From positions 1 to 38,235 of the forward strand of contig JAJZJQ010000013.1 of assembly GCA_021851065.1 (NCBI GenBank): 38,235 nucleotides of DNA. The letters are read 5' to 3'. Origin of the DNA: Microcaldota archaeon. Its GTDB lineage: Archaea > Micrarchaeota > Micrarchaeia > Micrarchaeales > CABMGC01. The notes under the pieces were generated by a model that saw only the letters and a list, made by a program, of their open reading frames with translations, was not told where the DNA came from and did not search any database. This document shows, one piece after another, positions 9,827-33,832 of this stretch; within the stretch, counting starts at the first letter, position 1, and every line of letters starts with the position of its first letter. Position numbers and translations under genes: made by a program.

Positions 9827-10972
9827 ATGCTCTCCTATGTTTTTCCGTTATATCCAAACAGAGAACAGAGGGAAGAGCTGGAGTTGACTCTCGAGACATG
9901 CAGGATTGCGTATAACTCCCTGCTTGAAGAACTTCACAAACAACAGATACCAGATAGAAGCGCAATGCAGCATAAACTTGTCGAGATGAAGAAGTCAAAC
10001 CCTGGCTTTGGCAAGGTATACTCGAAGACGCTGCAATACGAGTGCTATCGCCTCTTTTCCAACCTCTCCGCATTGCGCAGCCTCAAAAAGAAAGGGAGAA
10101 AGACAGGAAGGCTCAGGTTCAAGGGAAAGGAATGGTTCAAGACCATAGTATACAACCAGTCAGGCTTCAGGCTCGAGAAGGTCACCGAGAAACGCTCGAT
10201 AATCCATCTCTCCAGGATCGGGTCGATAAGTATAAAGACGCACAGGGCTGTGGAAGGCAGCGTAAAGGGCCTCATAATAAAGAGGTCATGCGGCAGATGG
10301 TACCTCATACTGCAGACTGACGCAAGAAGGAAGGACATCGTTCACGGAAGCAAGGAAATAGGCATCGATGTCGGGATAGAGAGCTACCTTACGGACAGCA
10401 ACGGGATTAAAGTGCAGAACCCGAAGACGCTGGAGAAATACCGCATGGATCTTGCATCAGCGCAGAAAGAACTGTCAAGGAAGAGGAAGGGCAGCGCAAA
10501 CAGGGCAAAGGCCAAAAGAAGGATGGAGAGACTCCACCGGAGGGTAACCAATGCGCGCAACGACTTCCTGCATAAGACATCTGCCCGACTTGTGAGGGGC
10601 TGCAGGTTCATCGCCGTAGAGAGACTTGACATAAAAGGCATGATGGAGCGGCCAAATTATAACGCCAGGAATATTGCAGACGCATCTTGGAACAGATTTC
10701 TGCAGATGCTGCGCTACAAGGCTGAGAGTGCCGGTTGCGGAGTTGTGGAAGTCGATCCAGCAAATACGACAAGAATGTGCAGTTCATGCGCCAGCCTGCA
10801 GGAGATGCCGCTATATAAGCGAGTTTATGATTGCGGCGCATGTAGCATGTCTATGGACAGGGACTGTAATTCTGCAATAAACATACTGAAGAAGGCTTAT
10901 GCGGGCCCGGAACGGGCCTATGCCGAGAATATGGATACGTATTCGATGAAACAAGAAGCCTCGGGCTTTTAG
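9827..10972 (+). CDS. tnpB: TnpB, IS200/IS605-family RNA-guided nuclease
   Basis: TnpB is the transposon-encoded ancestor of Cas12: a RuvC nuclease guided by an RNA from the transposon right end, promoting element retention. The 381-aa product is full length and looks intact. It has the N-terminal 'YPNREQREELELTLETCRIAYN' helix typical of OrfB. RuvC-I is in 'IGIDVGIESY' (Asp181), RuvC-II in 'FIAVERLDIKGM' (Glu265) and RuvC-III in 'MDRDCNSAINIL' (Asp344). A four-Cys zinc ribbon uses Cys318/321 and Cys336/339. No tnpA is present nearby, so this is a TnpB-only (IS1341-like) element that would need a transposase in trans. The stop codon lies inside the right-end hairpin, the usual arrangement when the guide RNA overlaps the 3' end of the gene. 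Confidence 0.95.
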   Translation: MLSYVFPLYPNREQREELELTLETCRIAYNSLLEELHKQQIPDRSAMQHKLVEMKKSNPGFGKVYSKTLQYECYRLFSNLSALRSLKKKGRKTGRLRFKGKEWFKTIVYNQSGFRLEKVTEKRSIIHLSRIGSISIKTHRAVEGSVKGLIIKRSCGRWYLILQTDARRKDIVHGSKEIGIDVGIESYLTDSNGIKVQNPKTLEKYRMDLASAQKELSRKRKGSANRAKAKRRMERLHRRVTNARNDFLHKTSARLVRGCRFIAVERLDIKGMMERPNYNARNIADASWNRFLQMLRYKAESAGCGVVEVDPANTTRMCSSCASLQEMPLYKRVYDCGACSMSMDRDCNSAINILKKAYAGPERAYAENMDTYSMKQEASGF

Positions 10973-14572: not shown

Positions 14573-14926
14573 ATGGGCTACTATATGCACATAGATACGG
14601 ATACTATGCCAGATAAAAAGTGCAGTGACACAGCCAGACTCTTACGGCAAAATTCCGAATATAAAATAAAACGGCACAATGCCCGTTTAGACCGTATCCG
14701 GTCAGAAGTAAGTAGGGCTAAAATTGGCAACTCAAAAAAGGAGAGATGGCAAAATCCCAAACTCAGAGATAAAATGATGGCGATCAGGACTTCTAAAGAA
14801 GTCAGAGAAAAGATTAGTAAGGCAGCAAAAGGCAGGAAACTCTCTGCTGAAACAAAAAGGAAAATGAGTCTAGCCAAAACAAATTTCAATATCGCTGAAG
14901 TAGCATGCGGAGAAGAGATAGTATGA
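14573..14926 (+). CDS. NUMOD3-motif protein inserted between cysD and cysN
   Basis: A 117-aa basic protein. Its C-terminal half (KEVREKISKAAKGRKLSAET, then KRKMSLAKTN) matches the NUMOD3 helix repeat, a DNA-contacting module of GIY-YIG and HNH homing endonucleases. No nuclease motif is visible, so this may be the DNA-binding remnant of a homing endonuclease or a domesticated DNA-binding protein. The region is clearly more A/T-rich than its neighbours. It uses Arg codons CGG/CGT and Leu codon TTA where flanking genes prefer AGG/AGA and CTT/CTC, which points to horizontal acquisition. Its stop overlaps the cysN start (ATGA at 14923-14926), so cysN translation is coupled to it. M5 (14585) is an alternative start. 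Confidence 0.65.
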   Translation: MGYYMHIDTDTMPDKKCSDTARLLRQNSEYKIKRHNARLDRIRSEVSRAKIGNSKKERWQNPKLRDKMMAIRTSKEVREKISKAAKGRKLSAETKRKMSLAKTNFNIAEVACGEEIV

Positions 14927-28835: not shown

Positions 28836-28910
28836 GGGCCCGTAACTCAGCTTGGCTAGAGTGGAAGGCTTTTAACCTTTAAGTCGAGGGTTCAAATCCC
28901 TCCGGGCCCG
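28836..28910 (+). tRNA. tRNA-Lys (anticodon TTT)
   Basis: A 75-nt cloverleaf without intron. The acceptor stem is GGGCCCG/CGGGCCC, followed by discriminator G at 28910. The D arm is ACTC/GAGT. The anticodon stem GAAGG/CCTTT has loop CTTTTAA, giving anticodon TTT. The variable loop is AAGTC. The T arm is GAGGG-TTCAAAT-CCCTC. The CCA end is not encoded. Confidence 0.97.
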
Positions 28911-28919
28911 CAAACATAA

Positions 28920-28949: not shown

Positions 28950-30563
28950 ATGGCAAGTGGCGCCCAGCAGGGCATTTACAAGGTGCTAAGCATCTCCTGC
29001 AGCCTGCTCGAGGAGCTGAACTCGCAGACACCGCCTAAAGCCACGGACATAAAAGCCAGGGTACAGGAGATAGCAGACGTTACAACGGCGCTCCTTGGCC
29101 AGCAGAATCTTGATGCTGACAATCTATACGGCATTTGGCAGATACATCTGTCCATAAGCAAGAACCTTGCAAAAAGGTCAAGGAAATCAGGTTCGAATGC
29201 AATAAAGAAAGCGGAGATCAGAATGAAAGAGCTGCAAAGAGAAGTCCAGGGCAGGCGCCAGGCCATCCATGAACTGGTCAGGGGCGCCGACTTTTCCCAG
29301 AAACCAACCCGTCATCCGCTCAAGATGGCCTTCAATGGCCACTGGAAGCTAGTAAGGGACGAAATACGCGGGCTTAAAGGCAAGACTGCAGGCCAGGCAG
29401 CCGATATGATCATAGAAGCTGCACTTGAAAGTGAGAATTACGGCCTCCAAAGCAGGCAAGTATCCATCAGCATGTATGCAGCTGCATCGTTTGTCTACCA
29501 TGGCTTTGACAAGGTCTATGCAGCAAAAGCCATTGAACGAAGCGAGCGCATAATAGCTGAAAATGCCCGAAGTTTTATGGGCTTTGATAAAGAGCAGGAA
29601 AAACTTTACATGCCCATATTCAGGATTTTCAGGGCAGCGGAATGGACAAACCTTGACATACACAATCAAGCCAGCCACTATGCCAATTCTGCTGTTAAAG
29701 AAGGACTCTACCATGCAGATGATGCCGAGATAAATTCAAGAACCGGAGAATTAAGGAAAACTGCACTAAAAGAAGCAGGAAACGGGATCGGAGGACATAG
29801 ACTAAGGGAATTCGTGCCATGGGGCCATCCTATTCCAAGCCGCAACTTCTTCTATCGTGTCGGTGTCGGCTCAAACGTAGAAAAGTACATATCAGTGGAT
29901 ATAGAGAGCAGGCAGCTCAACGATCTTCTTGCAAGGGCAAAAAAAATAGGCGGCATATTCGAAAATCCCAGCGTTTTTGCTGTTCCCGGCATACTTATTG
30001 GGGCATATCTTGCAGTAAGGACAAAATTTGCCAGCAATGTGATTACTGCAGCAGAAATGGACGAGCAGCTCTTCGATATTATCGGCAGGAGGCTCGAACT
30101 TTCCAGCGAATCAAAATCATACCGGTTATCGGTTAGGGACGGACGTATCATTAGCAGCATAGAAAGAAGGGATGAAGAGGCGTTTATAATACCCCTTGAC
30201 CTGTTCCTTGAAAGAGGCATCGGGACGTGCAGGCACGAGGCAGGCGCGGTCGCAGGATTACTGGCAAAACTCAGTGCACAAGGGCAGTTGGATGGCGAAA
30301 TATACTTTGACGTGGCGCTTAAGTCTATGGGGAGTAATATAAGTGGGGATCAGGGCCACATCTGGACAATATACAAGGCCAAAAACAGCAATACCTATCT
30401 TATAGATGCGTCGCTAGGCTGGATTGGCAGATACGACGAACGCACAGGGAAATATGTTGGTGAGGGGATGATCTCCTCAGGCGCACCTGGCAATACTGAG
30501 CCCCCATATCCATACTGGGAAGGCGTAATGGCACGGGGAGCCACGTCTCCATACTCGGATTAG
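28950..30563 (+). CDS. Transglutaminase/papain-like fold protein, unknown role
   Basis: 537 aa with no overall family recognised. The C-terminal third carries a convincing Cys-His-Asp arrangement. Cys427 is in 'LERGIGTCRHEAGAVAGLL', where the 'G-x-C-R-H-x-A' helix start is a transglutaminase-core hallmark. His470 is in 'SGDQGHIWTIYKAK', and Asp486 is in 'NTYLIDASLGWIG'. The ~43- and 16-residue spacings are normal for the fold. The N-terminal ~200 residues are helical and Lys/Arg-rich. There is no signal peptide, though a short hydrophobic stretch occurs near 350-362 (VFAVPGILIGAYLAV). It begins 39 bp after tRNA-Lys. Roles could include protease, cross-linking enzyme or amidase. The catalytic reading is inference from motif spacing. 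Confidence 0.6.
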   Translation: MASGAQQGIYKVLSISCSLLEELNSQTPPKATDIKARVQEIADVTTALLGQQNLDADNLYGIWQIHLSISKNLAKRSRKSGSNAIKKAEIRMKELQREVQGRRQAIHELVRGADFSQKPTRHPLKMAFNGHWKLVRDEIRGLKGKTAGQAADMIIEAALESENYGLQSRQVSISMYAAASFVYHGFDKVYAAKAIERSERIIAENARSFMGFDKEQEKLYMPIFRIFRAAEWTNLDIHNQASHYANSAVKEGLYHADDAEINSRTGELRKTALKEAGNGIGGHRLREFVPWGHPIPSRNFFYRVGVGSNVEKYISVDIESRQLNDLLARAKKIGGIFENPSVFAVPGILIGAYLAVRTKFASNVITAAEMDEQLFDIIGRRLELSSESKSYRLSVRDGRIISSIERRDEEAFIIPLDLFLERGIGTCRHEAGAVAGLLAKLSAQGQLDGEIYFDVALKSMGSNISGDQGHIWTIYKAKNSNTYLIDASLGWIGRYDERTGKYVGEGMISSGAPGNTEPPYPYWEGVMARGATSPYSD

Positions 30564-30578
30564 CATGGGCTGCACACG

Positions 30579-31295
30579 CTAAATAAGGTTGACCAGAAAG
30601 CCTATAAAGAAGCCCAGGAATATGCCGAAATATACTAGCCTCTGCCTTATCGGATCCATGTCCTTTAGCTGATGCTTTGTCATTGGCAGTATGACATACA
30701 GGATTGCTCCGATAGCAAGGCCGTCAACTACCACGTTGAACGGCACCGAGCTGAAATAGAAGCCCACTGCGCCTCCTATCACTGTCGGCAGGCCACCTAC
30801 GAGCAAAAGGGCTGCCATAACCCCAAGTTTCCTGTCGCTGTGGTTAAGGAAAGGCGAAGCTATCGGGAATCCTTCGGTGATGTTCTGCAATAGGAATCCT
30901 ACAAGCACTACCAGCGCAACTCCCGACAAGAGTCCAAGGCTTACGGACAGCGCCCCAAAAACCAGCCCCTCAGTAAGGTTCTGCAGGCCCATACCTACCG
31001 CTATCATGAGCGCCATTCTCTGCGGCGTAAGGCCATTTTTGGATCTGTTCTCGAACAAATAGAGCATGAAGAAACCCACCACAAGGCCGATGGCGAACAG
31101 TGCGCTCAGCATAGGGTTAGCTCCATAGCCTGCGAGCGCACCCTGTGCGTAAAGGCTAGAGGCCGCGTCAGAGAAAACGTCAGCAAGAAGGAATACCAGT
31201 ATGCCTATCGCAACAGCATTGAGCAGTCTTATGGTCTTCTCGCTGGTCTTCTTCCTAAGCACTATTGGCAGTGAGAGATAGATCGAAAAGCCCAT
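30579..31295 (-). CDS. ZIP-family metal transporter, N-terminus disturbed
   Basis: A divalent-metal (Zn/Fe/Mn) transporter of the ZIP/GufA kind, 238 aa from the ATG at 31295. The metal-site helices read 'GMGLQNLTEGLVFG' and 'GFLLQNITEGFPIAS'. ZIP proteins usually have His-Asn in the first and His or Gln in the second, so Gln at both is unusual. The ATG gives only half of helix 1. In-frame codons upstream (FIGTVIFSFV, then MGFSIYLSLPIVL) complete a full helix but lack an ATG/GTG/TTG before a stop. A different-frame ATG at 31336, well placed after the TATA box, opens a 13-codon frame ending on the ZIP ATG (TAATG). See the separate entry. The upstream neighbour is an HxlR regulator. Confidence 0.75.
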   Translation of the reverse strand: MGFSIYLSLPIVLRKKTSEKTIRLLNAVAIGILVFLLADVFSDAASSLYAQGALAGYGANPMLSALFAIGLVVGFFMLYLFENRSKNGLTPQRMALMIAVGMGLQNLTEGLVFGALSVSLGLLSGVALVVLVGFLLQNITEGFPIASPFLNHSDRKLGVMAALLLVGGLPTVIGGAVGFYFSSVPFNVVVDGLAIGAILYVILPMTKHQLKDMDPIRQRLVYFGIFLGFFIGFLVNLI

Positions 31296-31373: not shown

Positions 31374-31787
31374 CTACCTAGTTTGAGAAACCATAGTGGG
31401 TTCTTTTTCTATGGACTGCGCGCGGCTGCGCATCCTTGCGGCATATCTGCACCGGTCACCCTGCGGGCAACAGGTCCAGCAGAATTCCTTGGACTTGTCT
31501 ATGAGGTCTGCCAGTAGCAGCCCTTTTCCGGTAAGCGAATAGTTTATATACAATGTCTTGCCAATGGCAACAGGCTTCTTCTCAAGGATGCCCTCATCGC
31601 GCAGCTCTCCAAGAGCCTTTGCAAGCATGCACACAGTCACGCCGTCTATCGATGCCAATAGGCCATTGAAATGCCTTCCGCCGCTGCCGCTGTAATATAG
31701 CTCTTCCACTACAGGTATTGTCCACTTCTTGCCAAGTATGTGGACTATGCTGACAACAGAGCAGCCATCATCCTGCGCAGTTTCCAT
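31374..31787 (-). CDS. HxlR-family winged-helix regulator with Cys-rich tail
   Basis: 137 aa. HxlR proteins are small dimeric winged-helix regulators, often responding to thiol-reactive compounds or metals. The signature is present: Cys9 in 'DDGCSVVSIVHILGKKWTI', then 'PVVEELYYSG', 'RHFNGLLASIDGVTVCMLAK', and the wing 'LGELRDEGILEKKPV'. The C-terminus adds 'EFCWTCCPQGDRCRY', with four Cys in ten residues, suggesting a metal site or redox switch. It lies directly upstream of the ZIP transporter on the same strand, so metal-responsive control of that gene is plausible. TATA box AATATATAAC is centred 28 bp upstream of the ATG. Confidence 0.85.
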   Translation of the reverse strand: METAQDDGCSVVSIVHILGKKWTIPVVEELYYSGSGGRHFNGLLASIDGVTVCMLAKALGELRDEGILEKKPVAIGKTLYINYSLTGKGLLLADLIDKSKEFCWTCCPQGDRCRYAARMRSRAQSIEKEPTMVSQTR

Positions 31788-31820: not shown

Positions 31821-31868
31821 GCCAAAGCTTAAAAGATTTGGCCAGGGTGCCAGCTAAGATATATTATG

Positions 31869-31907
31869 CTGCTGCATCATAACGTATGGGGATGTCACCT
31901 GCAGCAG
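31869..31907 (+). other. Hairpin in the mazG-like leader
   Basis: CTGCTGCA (31869-31876) and TGCAGCAG (31900-31907) pair perfectly around a 23-nt loop, ending 12 bp before the ATG at 31920 and just upstream of the GTGAT ribosome site. A TATA-like AGATATATTA at 31858-31866 would place most of the stem in the mRNA leader. Confidence 0.4.
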
Positions 31908-31919
31908 TCAAGTGATGCA

Positions 31920-32279
31920 ATGGATGGCAAGACAACAATAACAGAGCTTAAGGAGGAAATCCGCAAGTTTAACGCTGAGAGGGACTGGGACCAGTTCCAC
32001 AGCGCAAAGGACCTGGCAATAGCCATATCCCTCGAGGCTGCGGAAGTGCTCGAGCCTTTCGTCTACAAGTCGGATGCGCAGTCCAAAGACATCATGTCCG
32101 GCACAAAACGCCAGGACATAGAGGACGAACTGGCCGATGTCCTATGGGCAGTGCTCATGTTCGCCGAGAGGTACGATATAGACATTTCTGATGCCCTAAG
32201 GGCCAAGATGAAGAAATCAGCCCTCAAGTATCCTGCAGACAAGGTGCGCGGTTCCAACAAGAAATACAACGAATACTGA
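31920..32279 (+). CDS. MazG-like nucleotide pyrophosphohydrolase
   Basis: 119 aa. These all-alpha enzymes hydrolyse (d)NTPs, often non-canonical ones, to the monophosphate. The metal-binding pattern E-x2-E ... E-x2-D is present in 'AISLEAAEVLEPF' and 'EDELADVLWAVLMFAE', as in the RS21-C6/dCTPase subgroup. The C-terminus 'KKSALKYPADKVRGSNKKYNEY' is typical of the short MazG-like proteins. An in-frame ATG at 31866 overlaps the TATA-like element, so the start at 31920 after GTGAT is preferred. lysS begins 5 bp after its stop, forming a two-gene operon. Confidence 0.85.
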   Translation: MDGKTTITELKEEIRKFNAERDWDQFHSAKDLAIAISLEAAEVLEPFVYKSDAQSKDIMSGTKRQDIEDELADVLWAVLMFAERYDIDISDALRAKMKKSALKYPADKVRGSNKKYNEY

Positions 32280-32284
32280 TAACG

Positions 32285-33832
32285 ATGGAGAAACACTCGA
32301 AGGAGGAACTGCAGGACAAGCACTGGTCGCAGATACTCGCAGAGCGTGTAATAAGCGAGAGGAAGGCCCCATTTATCATAACCGGCGGAATGACTACCAG
32401 CGGCCCTGCGCACCTTGGCACGGTGTGCGAATTCCTCTATCCTGCGATGCTAAAACAGGTTCTCGAGTCGCATGGAAGGAATGCGCAGCTGTATTTCGTC
32501 GGAGACATACTCGATGCTTTCGACGCAATACCGTACGAGATGCAGAAATATGCGGATATTCTGGCTCCTGACCTTGGCAAGCCGCTTGTGTATACAAAGG
32601 ACCCTCTCGGATGCCACAGCTCCTTCGGAGTGCATTATCTGGACCAGGCCATAGCACTTATGAAGAAACTTTCGCTGCAGGTGGATGTGACTTCCGCCAA
32701 TGATCTATACAAAAGCGGCAGGATGGATGGATATGCCTCAGCCTTCCTGCACGACGAGGCAAAGGTGAAGGAAGTAGTCGCGCGTACGTCCATGAAGAAA
32801 ATAGAGGACCTGCTAGACTGGAGCCCCATAATGCCCATATGCGAGAAATGCGGCAAGATAGCCACAACAAGGGTGACCTCTCACACTGACGACGCGTATG
32901 AGTATGCATGCGACAAGGATGTGAAATATGCCAGGGGTTGCGGATACTCAGGAAAGGCAAGACTCGCAGACCACAATTACAAGCTGCAATGGAGGCTTCA
33001 TTGGCCTGCGTGGCAGGCACTGTTCAATTCAAGCGTGGAGGGCAGCGGGATGGACCACATGACCAAGGGCGGAAGCGCAACAACAGCCATTGCAATACAC
33101 GAAGAGATACTCAAAACCACTGCTCCTATACTGTTCAAGTACGGATTCGTGCTGATAGAAGGCAAGAAATACTCAAAGTCAAAGGGCATAGGAATGAATG
33201 CAACAGAACTCAGCAATCTCATCCCTCCAGAGCTGCTTAAGTATGCGCTGATAGTGCCAAACATAGAGCAGAACAAGGACATAAACCCTACAGGAGACAA
33301 GCTCATAATGCTATACGGTGAGGTGGAGCACATAAGCGCCATCAAGGAGCCAGAGAAGAGGGCAGATGCCAAGAAACTGATGGCATTTTCCATAGCCATA
33401 GGCAAACTATCATGGAAGGCATCTTTCCTGGACATGCTGCTGAACTACCAGATATACCGGGACTGGGGCAAGGTTGCGCAGATAGTCGGCGATGAAGACG
33501 GGGTAAGGTATCTCTCTCCGTACATAGAGAGCTGGCTGTCAAGAGGATATGCGCCTGAAAGGTACGACTTTACCGTAAGGCAAGGGAAGGTTACATCTAA
33601 TAAGGATGCTGTCAGTAGCCTGGTGGCAAGGCTTGGCGACGGCATGACTGAGATAGAAGTCCATAACCTTATATACGGGGTCGCAATTGACAGCGGCGTG
33701 AAGCCTGACGATTTGTTCGCATCCCTATACACTGCACTCATAGGCAAGGACAAGGGACCGAGGATGGGAAAGCTTATAGTTGCGATAGGCATAGGGAAAG
33801 TCAAAGGCATGCTCAGGGCTGCGCTTATGTGA
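32285..33832 (+). CDS. lysS: Lysyl-tRNA synthetase, class I
   Basis: Class I LysRS is found mainly in archaea and some bacteria and is unrelated to the class II enzyme. The 515-aa product has the HIGH-like motif 'TTSGPAHLGTVCEF' (~38-50). A zinc-binding insertion carries 'ICEKCGKIATT' and 'YACDKDVKYARGCGYS', followed by 'HWPAWQALFNSSVEGSGMDH' and the KMSKS-like 'GKKYSKSKGIGM'. The C-terminal alpha-helical anticodon-binding part follows. Length matches the family (~500-530). It sits 5 bp downstream of the MazG-like gene, and a tRNA-Lys gene is in the same window. Confidence 0.95.
   Translation: MEKHSKEELQDKHWSQILAERVISERKAPFIITGGMTTSGPAHLGTVCEFLYPAMLKQVLESHGRNAQLYFVGDILDAFDAIPYEMQKYADILAPDLGKPLVYTKDPLGCHSSFGVHYLDQAIALMKKLSLQVDVTSANDLYKSGRMDGYASAFLHDEAKVKEVVARTSMKKIEDLLDWSPIMPICEKCGKIATTRVTSHTDDAYEYACDKDVKYARGCGYSGKARLADHNYKLQWRLHWPAWQALFNSSVEGSGMDHMTKGGSATTAIAIHEEILKTTAPILFKYGFVLIEGKKYSKSKGIGMNATELSNLIPPELLKYALIVPNIEQNKDINPTGDKLIMLYGEVEHISAIKEPEKRADAKKLMAFSIAIGKLSWKASFLDMLLNYQIYRDWGKVAQIVGDEDGVRYLSPYIESWLSRGYAPERYDFTVRQGKVTSNKDAVSSLVARLGDGMTEIEVHNLIYGVAIDSGVKPDDLFASLYTALIGKDKGPRMGKLIVAIGIGKVKGMLRAALM

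Follow-up and report, generated by a model that had tools for sequence, protein, structure and literature searches.

What does the large open reading frame that starts just downstream of a tRNA-Lys gene in a Micrarchaeota genome encode, and how did it come to lie there? The window, the whole 38,235-nucleotide stretch analyzed here (contig JAJZJQ010000013.1), is one of the 36 contigs (C8) of a 1.13 Mb genome that is 87.5% complete. A preliminary description of the sequence had pointed to a Cys427-His470-Asp486 arrangement in a 537-aa ORF, and all residues were found exactly at these positions. It had also placed a tRNA gene 39 bp upstream. The neighbor is a tRNA gene, tRNA-Lys(TTT), but the gap is 38 bp because the tRNA ends at 28911. 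The features of the locus are as follows.

28836..28911, + strand: tRNA-Lys, anticodon TTT, left edge of a variable slot (ARAGORN; synteny)
28950..30563, + strand, stop codon included: gene for the 537-aa transglutaminase-like protein (ORF with ATG start; family alignments)
28950..29285, + strand: N-terminal helical domain, aa 1-112 (sharing with other proteins; model helices)
29286..29846, + strand: middle region, aa 113-299, mainly helical, no recognized relative (Pfam; model)
29847..30464, + strand: catalytic region, aa 300-505 (family alignments, profile)
30228..30230, + strand: codon of the putative nucleophile Cys427, at a helix N-terminus (invariant in alignments; model)
30357..30359, + strand: His470 codon, G-H-x-W/Y motif (alignments, profile)
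30405..30407, + strand: Asp486 codon, V/I-D-A/P-S/T motif (alignments, profile)

Database searches

The 537-aa protein gave no accepted sequence match in Pfam, NCBIfam or the PDB, which bears out its earlier characterization as a protein of otherwise unknown architecture. Pfam matches up to E = 10 comprised only an unrelated DUF, and the curated cut-offs of Transglut_core and DUF553 were not reached. There was likewise no match in PADLOC or PHROGs. Inspection of the N-terminus by eye showed no apparent signal peptide. Hydropathy peaks at an average of 1.44 over 19 residues (from residue 342), so that no strong transmembrane segment is indicated. These observations point weakly to the cytosolic location proposed in the preliminary description. 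Promoter and terminator scans gave counts close to the shuffled expectation.

Conservation of the triad

Relatives of aa 300-505 were collected stepwise, within the genus and then within the family. Those with names all trace to Candidatus Micrarchaeota MAGs. In this catalytic region a G-x(n)-VDI(D/E) motif lies upstream, followed by an insertion of ~25 residues ahead of the Cys helix and then by a transglutaminase-like core, in which Cys427 is found in GTCRHE, His470 in GHIW and Asp486 in IDAS. The Cys, His and Asp, in that order, are invariant across 9-12 aligned sequences, depending on the alignment. The family alignment (n = 10) has 13 invariant columns, which include P415, G423, G425, C427, G445, G449, G469, H470, D486 and the upstream VDI. 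No member departs from the triad or its glycines, although overall identity in this alignment is just ~19-28%. Loss of the triad among relatives had been named beforehand as grounds for rejecting the enzyme assignment; every aligned member keeps it.

A profile of nine Micrarchaeota relatives, built with the 537-aa protein left out, detects this protein at E = 1e-11 and aligns its C, H and D to those of the family. As a control, 3000 shuffled versions of the protein were scored, and none did better than E = 0.61. When a relative from another family of the class (L029) was added to the profile, the match improved to E = 1.5e-14, and BLAST of the protein against L029 gave 31% identity over 97 aa (E = 8e-11, as a single comparison). 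The nine-relative profile also detects the class-level relatives L029, L030, L031, L038 and L014, and the family profile has matches in 18 of the 301 genomes of the class. Direct searches reach less far: a contig scan with the 537-aa protein as query returned no relatives, whereas the scan with relatives as queries succeeded. One alignment (A4) was too diverse to serve pattern scans. No full-length orthologue was found among 59 relatives, nor any relative in viral contigs or plasmids.

Two further observations concern the wider set of relatives. In family f2 (genera g28 and g39), proteins of 430-490 aa (L030, L031, L033, L034, L043, L044 and L049) occur in up to four copies per genome, with an N-terminal region that looks beta-helix-like by eye and a C-terminal transglutaminase-like domain; these copies represent a paralogous expansion within a 1-Mb genome. 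Near the relative in genome G008 there is a run of small genes (L006 228-2593, G008:C1), two of them kinase-like by eye and one helical.

Link to the transglutaminase-like superfamily

Several relatives pass Pfam cut-offs. L038 matches Transglut_core with 40.0 bits (E = 5e-10), the best among the distant relatives, and L014 scores 24.3 against a cut-off of 23. The DUF553 cut-off is passed by L003, L031, L038 and L039, by L003 with a margin of 0.5 bit (21.0 vs 20.5 bits); L003 is 30% identical to the 537-aa protein over the aligned part. Because it is the relatives and not the 537-aa protein that pass these cut-offs, the link to Pfam is transitive, leading from the protein to its close family (E 1e-11), from there to L038, L014 and L031, and from these to Pfam. 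A profile of just four distant Transglut_core-like members did not reach the 537-aa protein directly.

Structure models

Structure prediction had been proposed in the preliminary description as a check of the fold. The AlphaFold model of the full-length protein is poor (pLDDT 49.8), with most of the catalytic region below 65. At this low confidence it places a helix at 426-443 and strands at 469-477 and 482-486, in the order expected for the core. The N-terminal helices (4-23, 31-49, 56-80 and 83-112) are modeled better, at a pLDDT of ~80. A fold search with the full-length model returned mostly helical or repeat proteins, none of them significant, and was unusable beyond the N-terminal helices.

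A family member of 210 aa gave a considerably better model (pTM 0.73, core mostly at pLDDT 80-90). In this model Cys133 starts a helix (133-149), His171 lies on a strand (169-178) and Asp186 ends a strand (181-186). A fold search with it gave no PDB match at E<0.001. The highest-ranking entries nevertheless belong to the expected class: 3isr, a putative cysteine protease (prob 0.99, E = 0.006), followed by 3kd4 (prob 0.72). AvrPphB, vasohibins and the CPR-C4 protease appeared lower down, among unrelated entries, at E ~1. The family-member model therefore has the core arrangement that is expected, and the PDB entries closest to it, at E-values that are not significant, carry cysteine protease annotations.

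The profile match, the invariant triad, the relatives that reach Pfam and the core of the family-member model support the reading of the 537-aa protein as a homologue in the transglutaminase-like (papain-fold) superfamily, with a sequence link that is transitive. The fold assigned in the preliminary description is supported by the same evidence.

A shared N-terminal helical module

Three other proteins begin with the module seen at aa 1-112. Two are encoded in the same genome: a 363-aa protein on contig C21 (E 2.6e-8), which adjoins an archaeal ATPase_2 gene, and a 1043-aa protein on contig C23 (E 1.7e-8), whose sequence looks helical-repeat-like by eye. The third, of 521 aa, is in G218, a genome from another family of the same order (E 2.4e-15). 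One module thus occurs in four proteins with four different continuations, which are mutually unlike by eye; those of the other three proteins have no accepted Pfam match. The closest catalytic relatives of the 537-aa protein are without the module. Since aa 1-112 are shared with unrelated proteins and missing from the closest catalytic relatives, they constitute a movable N-terminal part. A conserved N-terminal module combined with variable C-terminal domains is the pattern by which polymorphic toxins and effectors are recognized, and these four proteins display it.

Two candidate matches of the continuations were set aside. A likeness to HopA1 in the G218 protein (E = 0.19) was not accepted, and a Gyrovirus capsid match in the C21 protein (E = 0.006), below the cut-off, was taken as chance.

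The interval between tRNA-Lys and lysS

The neighborhood of tRNA-Lys(TTT) was read in this genome and in ten more of the same genus. Three of these (G001, G009 and G010) have an empty interval between the tRNA and the lysyl-tRNA synthetase gene; the remaining ones carry different genes there. In the window, the 537-aa gene is followed by these features.

30579..31295, - strand: ZIP-type transporter-like gene, second in the slot (Zip E = 1e-4, below the Pfam cut-off)
31374..31787, - strand: HxlR-family regulator gene, in the slot (Pfam)
31866..32279, + strand: MazG-like nucleotide pyrophosphohydrolase gene, in the slot (Pfam)
32285..33832, + strand: class I lysyl-tRNA synthetase gene, right edge of the slot (synteny, Pfam)

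Related genes also lie by other tRNA genes. In two genomes, tRNA-Lys(CTT) is followed after 46 bp by a diverged family member. Another family member lies 42 bp before an intron-bearing tRNA-Leu, and the module protein of G218 lies 319 bp after tRNA-Asp; this adjacency was noticed post hoc, without a proper control. The GC3 of the 537-aa gene is 0.51; most other genes in the window range from 0.55 to 0.65. The 12-mers of tRNA-Lys are not repeated anywhere in the contig or in L057/L058, and neither the contig nor the sister sites gave a tRNA repeat of at least 12 bp that bears on the insert. Among the slot genes compared with Pfam (ZIP-like, HxlR and MazG) there is no integrase or recombinase, and the 537-aa protein has no such match. 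Site-specific integration is therefore unproven, as neither an att repeat nor an integrase was found, and the interval is read as a variable slot rather than a proven integration site. The earlier view of this tRNA gene as an integration point is supported as far as the slot, its empty sister genomes and the related genes by other tRNAs are concerned, but not for the hallmarks of integration.

Nine genomes of the genus have class I LysRS, and G001, G002 and G011 have class II instead, beside the same tRNA-Lys, so that the enzyme class is swapped in place (window 32285-33832; L089 3599-5104; L094 and L095). G010 also retains a class II LysRS fragment of ~100 aa elsewhere. A 402-aa tyrosine recombinase (L007 12348-13685, G000:C21; Phage_integrase E = 2.5e-21) starts 55 bp after a tRNA-Asp, in the same genome as the 537-aa gene and on the same contig as one of the shared-module proteins. 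Elsewhere in the window, an IS605-type OrfB/TnpB gene with a Cas12f1-like TNB domain was found at 9827-10972, and a small GC-poor ORF with a NUMOD3 motif (14573-14926; GC 0.40, GC3 0.39), whose composition is unlike the rest of the contig, lies between two larger ORFs.

Proposed function and alternatives

We favor the explanation that the 537-aa protein is a papain-fold thiol enzyme, likely a protease or amidase, whose helical module chooses its partner and whose gene is cargo of the slot; as a whole this is probable. Cys427 would attack an amide, with His470 as general base and Asp486 orienting His470. The substrate would most likely be a protein in the enzyme's own cell and less likely one in a contacted cell. 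The module at aa 1-112 may pick the partner or location, the middle helical region may act as linker or scaffold, and the gene would be accessory cargo, one of several gene sets that fill the tRNA-Lys to lysS slot in members of this Micrarchaeota genus. Hydrolases are common among members of the transglutaminase-like superfamily. Because of this, and because the solved structures closest in fold carry protease annotations, we infer that a thiol protease or amidase is the most likely enzyme type, ahead of cross-linking. The superfamily spans proteases, amidases, deamidases, acyltransferases and cross-linkers (PMC10318531), and sequence does not separate a protease from a cross-linker, deamidase or acyltransferase.

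A true protein cross-linker, joining Gln to Lys (or an amine) by an isopeptide bond, for example in stabilizing the cell surface or host contact, would have the same fold class. DUF553 proteins have been described as transferring peptidyl glutamine to amines (PMC10318531), and one relative passes DUF553 by the half bit given above; however, the source of that statement is a transglutaminase review of general scope and not work on an archaeal enzyme. With no apparent export signal and with many hydrolases in the superfamily, cross-linking is an unlikely activity for this protein. Inactive superfamily members exist as well (PMC10318531), so that a catalytically dead fold retained as a binding or structural domain has precedent. 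That catalytic residues and their glycines stay invariant at such low overall identity argues against it and makes it highly improbable here.

The four continuations of one N-terminal module, together with the accessory distribution of the protein, could also suggest a host-directed effector, with the module responsible for delivery into a partner archaeon, where a host protein would be modified by the transglutaminase-like domain. Some Micrarchaeota physically associate with Thermoplasmatales (PMC5864196), and to that extent the ectosymbiotic lineage assumed in the preliminary description is supported, as the relatives are Candidatus Micrarchaeota. Against such a role, no signal peptide is apparent by eye, no linked secretion gene or immunity gene was noted, PADLOC and PHROGs are without a match, and a shared helical module is equally compatible with an intracellular adaptor. 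Nothing observed here points to secretion of the protein or to its action as an effector, and we consider a host-directed effector quite unlikely. The broader proposal that the module marks Micrarchaeota-specific interchangeable effectors in slots by tRNA genes, the 537-aa protein being one that acts on the archaeal partner, is very unlikely. How the gene arrived is a separate matter, and cargo of an integrative element using tRNA-Lys genes as attachment sites would be compatible with any of the enzymatic readings. The empty or differently filled intervals, the related genes by tRNA-Lys(CTT), tRNA-Leu and tRNA-Asp and the lower GC3 fit such an element, while the missing repeats, integrase and viral or plasmid relatives, and a tRNA adjacency noticed after the fact, do not, making it rather unlikely.

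The family of the 537-aa protein has been missed by Pfam and NCBIfam; it is a defined group of enzymes whose nucleophile can be checked. How Micrarchaeota act on partner cells is largely unknown, and the module at aa 1-112 can be used as bait to gather candidate interaction proteins. Should the module turn out to be just an intracellular adaptor, the family would still extend the transglutaminase-like superfamily cleanly within the archaea.

Comparison with known systems

Among the papers searched, none mentions both Micrarchaeota and transglutaminase. The C-R-H-x-A motif after the catalytic Cys presumably resembles the EDR1/CTR1 peptidase-like domain (PF14381), which serves as a lead only; neither the 537-aa protein nor the relatives compared with Pfam match PF14381. 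The best fold matches of the family-member model, 3isr (a Cytophaga hutchinsonii putative cysteine protease) and 3kd4, differ from it in being bacterial, with another domain set, and align at a TM-score of 0.38 on the query, 15% identity and E >0.001.

Transglut_core (PF01841) shares with the 537-aa protein the Cys-His-Asp order, the placement of Cys at a helix start and of His and Asp on subsequent strands, and the G-x-C, H-x-W/Y and D-P/A-T/S motifs, and distant Micrarchaeota relatives pass its cut-off. However, the 537-aa protein itself is below detection and has in addition the N-terminal helical module, the long helical middle and the insertion of ~25 residues before the Cys helix. DUF553 (PF04473), a transglutaminase-like domain, is likewise reached by the four relatives listed above and not by the 537-aa protein; the upstream G-x-x-K-F...VDI motif, like the N-terminal module, is a feature of the branch of the 537-aa protein. 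The enzyme type is thus known, whereas this branch and its architecture appear undescribed.
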